Origin: Synechococcus sp. Tobar12-5m-g | Lineage (GTDB): Bacteria; Cyanobacteriota; Cyanobacteriia; PCC-6307; Cyanobiaceae | Assembly: GCF_024345415.1 (NCBI RefSeq) | Contig: NZ_JAGQBB010000004.1 | Span: 1 to 64,000, forward strand | DNA: 64,000 bases | Reading direction: 5' to 3' | In this document: in pieces, positions 31,699 to 39,401 of the stretch | Layout: each line of letters begins with the position of its first letter | Position numbering within the stretch: position 1 is the first letter of the stretch | Made by a program: the position numbers and the translations under genes | The notes under the pieces: generated by a model | The model's database searches: none | Told to the model about the DNA's origin: nothing | The model's input: the letters and a program-made list of their open reading frames with translations, nothing else

Positions 31699-34065
31699 TC
31701 AACCTCGGGCGCCGCCTGAGACCGTGATCAGGGAACCCTGGTCGGTGTTGCCGCTGGAGCCGGTCACGCGGCTGACCGGTTTCGTCACCTCTTCGTTGCG
31801 CTTGGGCTGGACCCCAGCCATGGCCGGCATCGGGCCGGTGCGGGTCGGATTGCGGCGACGGGCCGAGACCCCTTCGGTGCCCGTGACCCGCTTGCCCCGG
31901 TCCCAGTCATCTCCCGTGATGTGCAGACCGGCGGAGATGCCTTCACCGGTGACCCGAGAAACCGGTCGGCTGTCTTCATCGACGCTGACGGGAGCCTTGG
32001 CGGGAACATTCATGGCCGCACCGGCGTAGTGGGGAGCGCGGCGGTCAAAACGGAACTGCTCGGTGCCAGTGACCTTGTCACCGGCCAGGTCAAAAGGGCC
32101 GGTGATCCTGGCGCTGGTTTCATAGCGCGTGCCGGTGACGGCACCGCTGCGTTCAGGCTGCTGCTGGGCCGCCCTCGCCGGGGACTGGACGCTGAACTGT
32201 TGCCAGGGCTGGGGTTCCAGGGGCTGGGGAAAATCAGCCGCGGGGCTCTGGGCAACAGCGCAGGCCTCGTTGTACTGATCCACACCCACGTAGGGGGTGC
32301 CGGTGAGGGGTTCGCAGGCCCCCTTGCTGGCGCCCGTCATCACGCCACCGATGCCCGGCTGAATGCCGCTGAGCCTTGGCCCCGGGGTGCCACGGCCCAT
32401 CGGGGTGCGCTGACGAATGGTGTTGACCGCCGAAGGGGCGCACCATTCGCCTGCTTGCTCCAGGCCCGCATAGGGGGTGCCGGTGACCGCCTTGCAGGTG
32501 CCGGGTTCATCGCCGGTGACCTTGGACGAGCGTCCGGTGCTGGTGCCGGAGACCACCAATTGCTTGTTGGTTAGGCTGAAGCTCACCTTGGCGGCCTCGG
32601 CTTCAGGGCGGGCACCGCAGAAATTGTCGTACTGCTGGCTGCCGATGTATTCATCCCCCGTGACCCGGCGGCAGGTGCCGGGCTCATTGCCGGTGACCTT
32701 GTCGCTGCGGCCGACGAGGGTGCCGGTGATGCCCGTTCCCCGCAGGGTGTGCACCTGTCCCACCTTGGCGGGGGCCTTCCCTGGGGTGGCTGTGGAATCG
32801 GAGCCGACGTACTGGGTGCCGGTGGTGCGAAGGCCGGCGCCGTGCTCGTCGCCGGTCACCTTCTCGGAACGGCCGACCATCACGCCGGAGACGGGCCGGC
32901 CGGCCAGGGTCTGGCCGAGCCCGACCTTGCGGGGGGCAGGGCTTGACACGCCGCAGTAAGCGGCCGACTGGTTCGCGGAGAGATACTCGGTGCCGGTGAC
33001 GATCTTGCAGGTCCCTGGCTCATCACCGGTGACCTTCTCGGAGCGACCGACCTCATTGCCGGTGACTTTGTTGCCATGGCTGGTGGCCGTCACTGCCACC
33101 TTGGCTGGCTGCAGGGGCTGGGGCTCGCTCTGGCAGAACGACCGGAAGATATCGGCGCCCATGTATTCGGTGCCGGTGATCGGCCGACAGGTGCTCGCTT
33201 CATTCCCGGTGGTCTTCAGGGAGCGGGTGGCCTGGGTGCCGGTCACCAGCTGGCCACGGCTGGTCTCACCAACACCCACCTTCCAGGTGGCGTCCTGGGC
33301 ACCAGCCACCTTGCTGGGGCCTCGGCGAGGTCCCGTCGGCCTGGTGACTCCTGTGCAACCGCCGACGGCAGCCGCACCGTTCTTGCTTTTCAGATCTCGA
33401 ATGCGATGGGCCAGATCCCGGCTGCTCATGTCGGGATTGGTCTGCCGCACCACGGCGGCGGTGCCGGTGGAACCATTGATGGCGGCCGACTTGCCGTGCT
33501 TGGACTGGGCTTCGCGGCGGGCGAGGACCACGGCACGGCTGGGGTTGTGCTGGGCGGAACGCTTCGGCCCGTTGCGATGATTCGGGTTGGACTTGGTGGC
33601 TTGGCGCTGGGCCGAACCTTCGCTGAACAACGGCCTGGAGGCGCGGGTTGGTTCGGTCGTGCTGGCTTTGGCCGAAGCTGCAACGGCCGGTTCAAAGGCG
33701 GTGGCCGCCGGGCTGGCCGGCGCCGGGGCGGTGCGGGTGCGGTCCTTGCTGGTGTCAGCACGCTTGCCCCGCTTGCTGAGGGCCTCGCGGCGAGCCAGCA
33801 CCAGATCGCGGCTGGGGTTGGAAATCGGAGCACGGTTGCGGGGCTGGCTGCTTGCCTGGTGGCGGCTGGCAGGACCGGGCTGGCTCAACATGGGCACGGG
33901 TAGCGCCGATGCGACGACGGTTGCAGCAGCCCGGGTCGGGCGGGCCTCGGAGGCGCTGCGGACCCGGTCGGGACTGCTGGCAAAACGCTTCTCAGCCGTT
34001 TTTCCGGCGGTGGAGAGCGCCAAACGACGTGCAAGGGCCGCTTCGCGACTGGATTGAGTTGCCAT
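31699..34065 (-). CDS. csoS2: Carboxysome scaffold protein CsoS2
   Basis: This intrinsically disordered protein of 788 residues starts at the ATG at 34065. Four N-terminal repeats of the LARR.A.S..GK type occur (near residues 6-22, 85-100, 175-190 and 217-232) and bind Rubisco. A middle region has about six repeats with GRSEKVTGDEPGTCK-VTGTEY patterns and paired Cys. A C-terminal region ends in a conserved short peptide (ITVSGGARG) that anchors to the shell. Some bacteria make a short form by -1 frameshifting; I could not identify a slippery site. A hairpin separates it from cbbS. Confidence 0.95.
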   Translation of the reverse strand: MATQSSREAALARRLALSTAGKTAEKRFASSPDRVRSASEARPTRAAATVVASALPVPMLSQPGPASRHQASSQPRNRAPISNPSRDLVLARREALSKRGKRADTSKDRTRTAPAPASPAATAFEPAVAASAKASTTEPTRASRPLFSEGSAQRQATKSNPNHRNGPKRSAQHNPSRAVVLARREAQSKHGKSAAINGSTGTAAVVRQTNPDMSSRDLAHRIRDLKSKNGAAAVGGCTGVTRPTGPRRGPSKVAGAQDATWKVGVGETSRGQLVTGTQATRSLKTTGNEASTCRPITGTEYMGADIFRSFCQSEPQPLQPAKVAVTATSHGNKVTGNEVGRSEKVTGDEPGTCKIVTGTEYLSANQSAAYCGVSSPAPRKVGLGQTLAGRPVSGVMVGRSEKVTGDEHGAGLRTTGTQYVGSDSTATPGKAPAKVGQVHTLRGTGITGTLVGRSDKVTGNEPGTCRRVTGDEYIGSQQYDNFCGARPEAEAAKVSFSLTNKQLVVSGTSTGRSSKVTGDEPGTCKAVTGTPYAGLEQAGEWCAPSAVNTIRQRTPMGRGTPGPRLSGIQPGIGGVMTGASKGACEPLTGTPYVGVDQYNEACAVAQSPAADFPQPLEPQPWQQFSVQSPARAAQQQPERSGAVTGTRYETSARITGPFDLAGDKVTGTEQFRFDRRAPHYAGAAMNVPAKAPVSVDEDSRPVSRVTGEGISAGLHITGDDWDRGKRVTGTEGVSARRRNPTRTGPMPAMAGVQPKRNEEVTKPVSRVTGSSGNTDQGSLITVSGGARG

Positions 34066-34110
34066 ATCCGCCCGGTGAGTAAGTGGCCTGAACAATTCAG
34101 AGGTAAGGGT

Positions 34111-34523: not shown

Positions 34524-35936
34524 TCAGTTGACGTCAAGCTTGTCGACGGTGTCGAACTCGAACTTGATCTCCTTCCAGGTCTCGAGGGCGATCGCCAGCT
34601 CAGGGCTGTGCTTGGCCGCTTCGAGCAGGATGTCGCGGCTTTCCTTCTCGATCTCGCGTCCGGCGTTGCGGGCCTTGACGCAGGCTTCGAGGGCGACGCG
34701 GTTGGCGGCGGCGCCTGCGGCGGATCCCCAGGGGTGGCCGTGGGTGCCACCACCGAACTGGAGCACGGAGTCGTCACCGAAGATCGCCACCAGGGCGGGC
34801 ATGTGCCAGACGTGGATGCCGCCGGAAGCCACGGCGAAGACGCCGGGCATCGAACCCCAGTCCTGATCGAAGAAGTTGCCGCGGCTGCGATCTTCGGGGA
34901 TGAAGGATTCGCGCAGCTGGTCGATGAAGCCCAGGGTGGTCTGGCGATCACCTTCGAGCTTGCCCACCACGGTGCCGGTGTGGAGCTGGTCACCACCGGA
35001 GAGGCGCAGGCACTTGGCCAGCACCCGGAAGTGAATGCCGTGCTTGGGATGGCGGTCGATCACCGCGTGCATGGCGCGGTGAATGTGCAGCAGCATGCCG
35101 TTCTTGCGGCACCACTTCGACAGACCGGTGTTGGCGGTGAAGCCCCCGGTGATGTAGTCGTGCATGATGATCGGCTGACCCAGTTCCTTGGCGAACTCGG
35201 CCCGCTCGTACATCTCTTCCGGGGTGGCGGCGGTGCAGTTGAGGTAGTGCCCCTTCTTCTCCCCGGTTTCCTGCTGGGCCGACTCAACGGCTTCAGCGAC
35301 GAACTCAAAACGGTTCTGCCAGCGCTGGAACGGCTGGGAGTTGATGTTCTCGTCGTCCTTGGTGAAGTCGAGACCGCCGCGGAGGCATTCGTAGACCACC
35401 CGGCCGTAGTTCTTGCCGGAGAGGCCGAGCTTCGGCTTGATGGTGCAACCGAGCAGGGGACGGCCGTACTTGTTCATCCGGTCGCGCTCGACGCAGATGC
35501 CGTTCGGCGGTCCCGGGCAGGTCTTGATGAAGGCCATCGGGAAGCGGATGTCTTCCAGGCGCAGGTGGCGCAGGGCCTTGAAGCCGAACACGTTGCCCAC
35601 CAGGGAGGTGAGCACGTTGGTGATCGAGCCCTCCTCGAACAGGTCGAGGGGGTAGGCGATGAAGGCGTAGAAGGATTCCTTGTCGCCTGGAACGTCTTCG
35701 ATGCGATAGCAGCGGCCCTTGTAGAAGTCGAGGTCGGTGAGGAGTTCAGACCAGACCGCCGACCAGGTGCCGGTGGAGGATTCAGCGGCCACGGCGGCTG
35801 CCACCTCTTCGCGGGGAACACCTTCCTGGCCGGTGACCTTGAAGCAGGCCAGCAGGTCGGTGTCCAGGGGAACGTAGTCAGGAGTCCAGTAGGTATCCCT
35901 GTACTCCTTGACCCCGGCGTCGAATTTCTTGCTCAT
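34524..35936 (-). CDS. cbbL: Rubisco large subunit, Form IA
   Basis: The 470-residue large subunit has the catalytic loop [17 protein letters not shown] and the carbamylated-Lys motif [11 protein letters not shown]. The C-terminal loop region [18 protein letters not shown] is also present. The N-terminus ([19 protein letters not shown]) is of the proteobacterial-type Form IA found in alpha-cyanobacteria. It carboxylates RuBP in the carboxysome. It lies second in the operon, 73 nt after csoS1. Confidence 0.97.
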
Positions 35937-36009: not shown

Positions 36010-36321
36010 TCAGTCCTTCGACCCGACTCCGAAGCTGCTGGTCAGGGCCGGCTCCACTTCCCTGTGGGGACGGGCAATGATGTGGGCAGCCACGAGGCCG
36101 TCGCCGACCCGCTCGCAGGCGTCAGCCCCGGCGCGAACGGCGGCGTTGACGGCGCCCGTTTCGCCGCGTACGAGGACGGTGACGTAGCCACCACCCACGA
36201 ACTCACGGCCGATCAGGCGGACTTCCGCCGCTTTGGTCATCGCGTCAGCAGCTTCGATGGCAGGCACCAGGCCGCGCGTTTCGATCATGCCGAGGGCAAT
36301 GCCCATGGTTTCACTCGCCAT
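36010..36321 (-). CDS. csoS1: Major carboxysome shell protein CsoS1
   Basis: A 103-residue BMC-H protein (MGIALGMIETRGLVPAIEAADAMTKAAEV ... GDGLVAAHIIARPHREVEPAL). Hexamers tile the shell facets. It is the first gene of the cluster. GGAG lies 6 nt before the ATG at 36321, a good ribosome-binding site. CsoS1D, usually found just upstream in related genomes, is not in this window; its place is taken by divergent chlN. Confidence 0.95.
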   Translation of the reverse strand: MASETMGIALGMIETRGLVPAIEAADAMTKAAEVRLIGREFVGGGYVTVLVRGETGAVNAAVRAGADACERVGDGLVAAHIIARPHREVEPALTSSFGVGSKD

Positions 36322-36432
36322 TGACGACTCCGGGACAGAGAAAGGAGGTTCGATGAGAACAGTGCTCTTCGACGTACCCCGCCGTCAAGCCAATTGGGTG
36401 TTCTTTCCCATCAAGGTCCGTAGTGGTCTCGA

Positions 36433-36469
36433 TAAGCAGTGCTCATCCTTGCTTAGAACCATGAAGCAA
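36433..36469. promoter_or_regulatory. Interleaved dyads in the csoS1-chlN divergent region, LysR-type site candidate
   Basis: TTGCTT (36449-36454) and AAGCAA (36464-36469) form a perfect dyad with a symmetric T-N11-A core. TAAGCA (36433-36438) and TGCTTA (36450-36455) form a second, overlapping dyad. The sites lie 112 to 149 nt upstream of csoS1 and 87 to 123 nt upstream of chlN. Overlapping T-N11-A dyads are characteristic of LysR-type regulators such as CbbR/RbcR. Binding is inferred. Confidence 0.5.
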
Positions 36470-36543
36470 TATGAAGGAAACAGCGAAACCGGGCGACGGA
36501 ATTCCTTCGTCGGGGCGGCTGGGAGTAGCCAGGAAGAGTTTGA

Positions 36544-39401
<2,858 letters not shown>

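Follow-up and report, generated by a model that had tools for sequence, protein, structure and literature searches.

In proteobacterial cbb operons the RuBisCO genes are regulated by the LysR-type protein CbbR, whose sites carry a T-N11-A core like that of the box described here, and these operons are usually divergent to the CbbR gene, while in the genome analysed here the LysR-type gene lies on another contig. Among cyanobacteria, the closest described counterpart is RbcR (Sll0998) of Synechocystis sp. PCC 6803, for which a 2026 review citing Bolay et al. 2022 gives the motif ATTA(G/A)-N5-(C/T)TAAT (PMC13249358). According to that review, RbcR activates transcription when bound some 90 nt ahead of the start, and its targets comprise RuBisCO, carboxysome shell genes (ccmK2K1LMN) and others. 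The same source summarizes two further LysR-type systems of inorganic-carbon control, NdhR/CcmR with ATAG-N8-CTAT sites and CmpR with TTA-N7/8-TAA sites, and RbcR is given as the LysR-type regulator of Prochlorococcus MED4 (PMC6778093).

The box analysed here was located in the window, that is, the whole stretch of 64,000 nucleotides of Synechococcus sp. Tobar12-5m-g that was analysed. It resembles the Synechocystis RbcR sites, as the review presents them, not only in being a 15-bp T-N11-A dyad with ATNAG/CTNAT half-sites and five free bases, but also in lying about 90 nt upstream of a start, in our case a predicted one, and in its association with RuBisCO and carboxysome shell genes. Eight of the ten bases specified by the published consensus fit. 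The two exceptions are positions 3 and 13, occupied by T and A in Synechocystis, where our box has G and T in the csoS1 sense and the family shows mostly A, C or G at position 3 and T at position 13. The targets also differ, since the Synechocystis sites named in the review serve rbcLXS and ccmKLMN, whereas the binding predicted here would concern the cso operon of an alpha-carboxysome. The half-sites and spacing of the NdhR/CcmR and CmpR sites, as summarized there, do not fit the box, and the genome holds no second PF00126 gene. Neither a published RbcR site in a cso operon nor a link between chlN and csoS1 turned up in the literature searches, so that the predicted RbcR-type site of the cso operon appears to be new relative to the literature searched, although this kind of site is already known.

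The csoS1-chlN intergenic region and its two perfect dyads

The genes csoS1 and chlN form a divergent pair with 234 nt between them, in agreement with the preliminary description of this DNA, and the genes downstream of the box follow the order csoS1-rbcL-csoS2, all of them RuBisCO/carboxysome genes.

36010..36321, minus strand: csoS1, opening gene of the cso operon, encoding a carboxysome shell protein (BMC domain PF00936, E 1.5e-26)
34524..35936, minus strand: rbcL, RuBisCO large subunit, next gene of the operon (PF00016 and PF02788)
31699..34095, minus strand: csoS2 (PF12288)
36556..37809, plus strand: chlN, divergent neighbour, unlikely target of the box (PF00148; its only match in the genome is itself)
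36433..36455, no strand: dyad 1, right arm fortuitous (unconserved in 6/6 relatives, chance-level)
36449..36469, no strand: dyad 2, fortuitous (unconserved in 6/6 relatives, chance-level)

That description had regarded the two overlapping dyads as a LysR-type site shared by the cso and chlNBL operons. Both dyads are indeed present with perfect 6-bp arms (TAAGCA-N11-TGCTTA and TTGCTT-N9-AAGCAA) and overlap by 7 nt, but they are no commoner than chance: when the 234-nt region was dinucleotide-shuffled 2000 times, 21% of the shuffled copies contained at least two perfect dyads with 6-bp arms and 3-15 nt spacers, and so did 110 of the 273 window tiles of the same 234-nt length. Nor are they conserved: the six relatives with the same divergent arrangement keep 4, 1, 2, 1, 4 and 3 of the six pairs of dyad 1, and 2, 0, 2, 0, 0 and 4 of those of dyad 2, so that neither dyad is retained in any of them. 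For the dyads as originally drawn, this is the very outcome that the preliminary description had named as refuting its proposal. This chance-level frequency and the loss in all six relatives rule out both dyads as operators. An alignment by eye suggested that dyad 2 might have diverged from the chlN element ATCCCRAARAGWTTT, but a motif scan gave this no support. The T-N11-A core described along with the dyads is real, yet it sits in a different dyad, ATAAGC-N3-GCTCAT (36432-36446), which is shorter and imperfect and overlaps the left edge of the named ones. The perfect dyad pair is a coincidence, which led by chance to a real overlapping site.

A conserved 15-bp box upstream of csoS1

36432..36446, no strand: LysR-type (RbcR-like) box ATAAG-N5-CTCAT, in the csoS1 sense ATGAG-N5-CTTAT (scan of csoS1 upstream regions and 7-genome alignment)

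The broader proposal that a LysR-type (RbcR/CbbR-like) site might occur in this intergenic region fared better, as this conserved box appears to be one. It contains T36433-N11-A36445, both bases being invariant across the seven genomes in which csoS1 and chlN are adjacent (our own and six relatives). In these genomes 13 of the 15 columns of ATAAGC-N3-GCTCAT are identical and the two variable columns are central. Ranked by conservation in the same alignment, the box is the ninth of 219 windows of 15 nt, behind windows that include the csoS1 -35 and -10 elements, and invariant columns amount to 53 of 110 in the csoS1-side flank versus 15 of 109 on the chlN side.

The wider comparison started from 91 family genomes, of which 82 were analysed after dropping eight without a csoS1 match (G001, G023, G030, G044, G047, G068, G081 and G089) and G014, in which the only match was weaker and paralogue-like. 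A sequence of the form ATNAG-N5-CTNAT begins between -121 and -129 of csoS1 in all 82 genomes (79 exact, three with one mismatch), while outside the -110 to -140 zone of the same 500-bp upstream regions the best match was exact in 1/82. Positions 1, 2, 4, 5, 11, 12, 14 and 15 are near-invariant (80-82 of 82 each), with T at position 2 and A at position 14 in every genome, and the centre bases 7-9 are free; the resulting family motif is ATNAG-N5-CTTAT. In our own genome, a search with ATRAGCNNNGCTYAT at 0 mismatches returned this box as the sole site, and the looser ATNAGYNNNGCTNAT returned few sites, several of them within long open frames; five of the further box-like loci gave no match in Rfam. 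Direct repeat D2 (36355-36370), considered as a possible second box, was discarded, as T-N11-A is missing there and the repeat is the -10 region of csoS1. The box is a real and strongly conserved site of the alpha-carboxysome operon, probably of the RbcR type.

Arrangement of the csoS1 promoter

36410..36413, minus strand: TGAT, half-site-like element and candidate activation half-site, 18 nt downstream of the box (putative role)
36383..36388, minus strand: csoS1 -35 element TTGACG (conservation of TTGAC)
36359..36364, minus strand: csoS1 -10-like element CACTGT, with an 18-nt spacer (conservation of an A2/T6 hexamer)
36352..36352, minus strand: predicted csoS1 transcription start, 7 nt past the -10 (geometry only)

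These elements keep nearly fixed distances throughout the family. TGAT or TAAT stands exactly 18 nt from the end of the box in 76/82 genomes, and TTGAC is present in all 82 csoS1 upstream regions, 43 nt past the box in 74 of them. A hexamer with A at its second and T at its sixth position follows with an 18-nt spacing in 78/82 and a 17-nt spacing in one, none being called in the remaining three. This -10-like hexamer is of the CANNGT type (CATTGT in 32 genomes, CATGGT in 14), which is not a consensus sigma-70 -10, and a generic sigma-70 scan of 36250-36650 found no promoter. The nearly fixed spacings among box, -35 and -10, together with a start assumed 7 nt past the -10, place the centre of the box at -87, a position shared by 73 of the 79 genomes with a called -10. 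Directly downstream of the -10, GAACATTCC is widespread in the csoS1 leaders of the family (L096-L177) and might correspond to the initial transcribed region.

RbcR as the candidate regulator

A single PF00126 (LysR-type) gene was detected in the genome (G000:C2, E 9.6e-24). Exactly one such gene occurs in 40 of 56 family genomes, more than one in 10, and none in six, all of which are 53-81% complete. A profile of our gene retrieves genes 81-95% identical to it in records named Cyanobium, Synechococcus and Prochlorococcus, and the gene is 67-70% identical to four class-level cyanobacterial ones in a comparison set without Sll0998. Many helix-turn-helix residues are invariant between the family and these class-level orthologues, and the best solved relative, 5y2v, is annotated as 'Rubisco operon transcriptional regulator'. 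No NCBIfam model reached the cut-off among the 25 matches listed for the gene, and no obvious box was seen by eye upstream of it. Farther afield, a modest independent control comes from 12 class-level genomes: five of them have an exact ATNAR-N5-YTNAT less than 600 bp upstream of rbcL, although not at a constant distance, versus 5.5% of shuffles. An exact match to the stricter form of the box was seen in 1/12.

The prediction that RbcR controls the RuBisCO-carboxysome operon is well supported. We consider it very probable that the box is the recognition site of RbcR, the sole LysR-type regulator here, within the csoS1-rbcL-csoS2 promoter, and that chlNBL is a mere neighbour, probably with a promoter of its own. 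It seems unlikely that the box is read instead by some dyad-binding regulator outside the LysR family, its LysR-like geometry being coincidental: such a factor might account for the departure from the Synechocystis consensus and for similar palindromes in the different setting of DUF2811 genes, but the T-N11-A core, the ATNAG/CTNAT half-sites, a centre at -87 and a target operon with RuBisCO genes all fit RbcR.

In several genera, two DUF2811 (PF10929) paralogues are preceded by those palindromes (e.g. ATCAGCACTGCTGAT), which were seen at L092/L262 (G000:C1:297615) and L263 (G000:C6) in our genome and at several loci of relatives (L264-L281). Ten aligned loci show in their leaders CTTGACA and repeats of TTTTCCACA, which we take to resemble DnaA boxes. 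These palindromes could possibly represent further RbcR targets or the sites of another regulator.

The chlN side and the proposed coupling with chlNBL

The separation of csoS1 and chlN in much of the family allows a direct test of which gene owns the box. The two genes are directly divergent, 231-290 nt apart, in seven of 79 chlN loci (our own genome and six relatives); elsewhere they are often apart, with chlN kilobases off in some genomes. These loci include two from outside the family (L079 and L080) and leave out the partial matches of G045 and G089 and a second copy in G004; their chlN starts were extrapolated from the protein of the window and may be off in relatives.

The preliminary description envisaged a site common to both operons, so that carbon fixation and dark chlorophyll synthesis would be co-controlled. 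Such a reading, in which the RbcR box would also activate or repress chlNBL in the small clade with adjacent csoS1 and chlN, can draw on the presence of the box between both genes in 7/7 adjacent genomes, at 121-124 nt from its start to the chlN ATG in five of them; with a short chlN leader, it would also lie near -90 to -100 of the chlN start. However, an exact box was found in the 600-bp chlN upstream region of only one of the 72 non-adjacent loci, about the level of shuffles (1.2%). In the other two adjacent genomes the distance to chlN grows to 158 and 180 nt while that to csoS1 stays at 125, and the chlN side is the poorly conserved one. The near-fixed spacing to csoS1, which holds even in genomes with chlN kilobases off, the varying spacing to chlN and the chance-level occurrence in non-adjacent chlN upstream regions assign the site to csoS1. 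Moreover, many chlN promoters have an element of their own, ATCCCRAARAGWTTT, present with at most two mismatches in 42/79 chlN upstream regions. Co-control of cso and chlNBL is thus not supported and is unlikely. In five close genomes the geometry does permit a capture of chlNBL by the RbcR box, which lies about 117 nt from the chlN ATG. We regard such a capture in the small Cyanobium-like clade with adjacent csoS1 and chlN as improbable; if true, light-independent chlorophyll synthesis would track the inorganic-carbon signal in those strains only.

The element ATCCCRAARAGWTTT stands about 63-70 nt before the chlN start in Prochlorococcus-like genomes and farther upstream in some others (L010-L078), and two adjacent genomes keep a copy with three mismatches at -76/-77. 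No known regulator was recognized for ATCCCRAARAGWTTT in these upstream regions.

That the region is conserved by common descent alone and its dyads have no function, which does hold for the two perfect ones, is hardly conceivable for the box, whose arms are near-invariant in 82 genomes around free bases and at a near-fixed distance.

A family member of 2.5 Mb and 95% completeness (G047; L024, L227) lacks any BMC-domain match. Its rbcL-rbcS genes form a directly divergent pair with chlN and seem to have kept a csoS1-type promoter (by eye, a one-mismatch box and TTGACG), and genes that we presume from sequence features to be nif-like lie near this locus. This looks like a case of carboxysome loss with RuBisCO retained. 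Our own genome also contains an encapsulin-like gene (L216, G000:C6:7754; PF19307, similar to the type 2A shell protein SrpI).

Proposed mechanism and implications

In the mechanism that we propose, an RbcR tetramer would occupy both the 15-bp T-N11-A box, at about -87, and the weaker TGAT half-site two helical turns downstream. RbcR bound in this way would most likely recruit RNA polymerase to the non-consensus TTGAC/CANNGT promoter, which would activate csoS1-rbcL-csoS2. The presumed trigger, judging from what is known of the regulator family, would be a Calvin-cycle metabolite signalling low inorganic carbon. The chlNBL genes would merely have been brought close in one small clade, most likely keeping their own promoter.

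For the abundant marine and freshwater picocyanobacteria, these data provide a concrete model of cis-site and promoter for the RuBisCO-carboxysome operon, and would link to this operon what is usually the single LysR-type regulator of picocyanobacteria, while the coupling suggested for carbon fixation and chlorophyll synthesis in the dark is removed.
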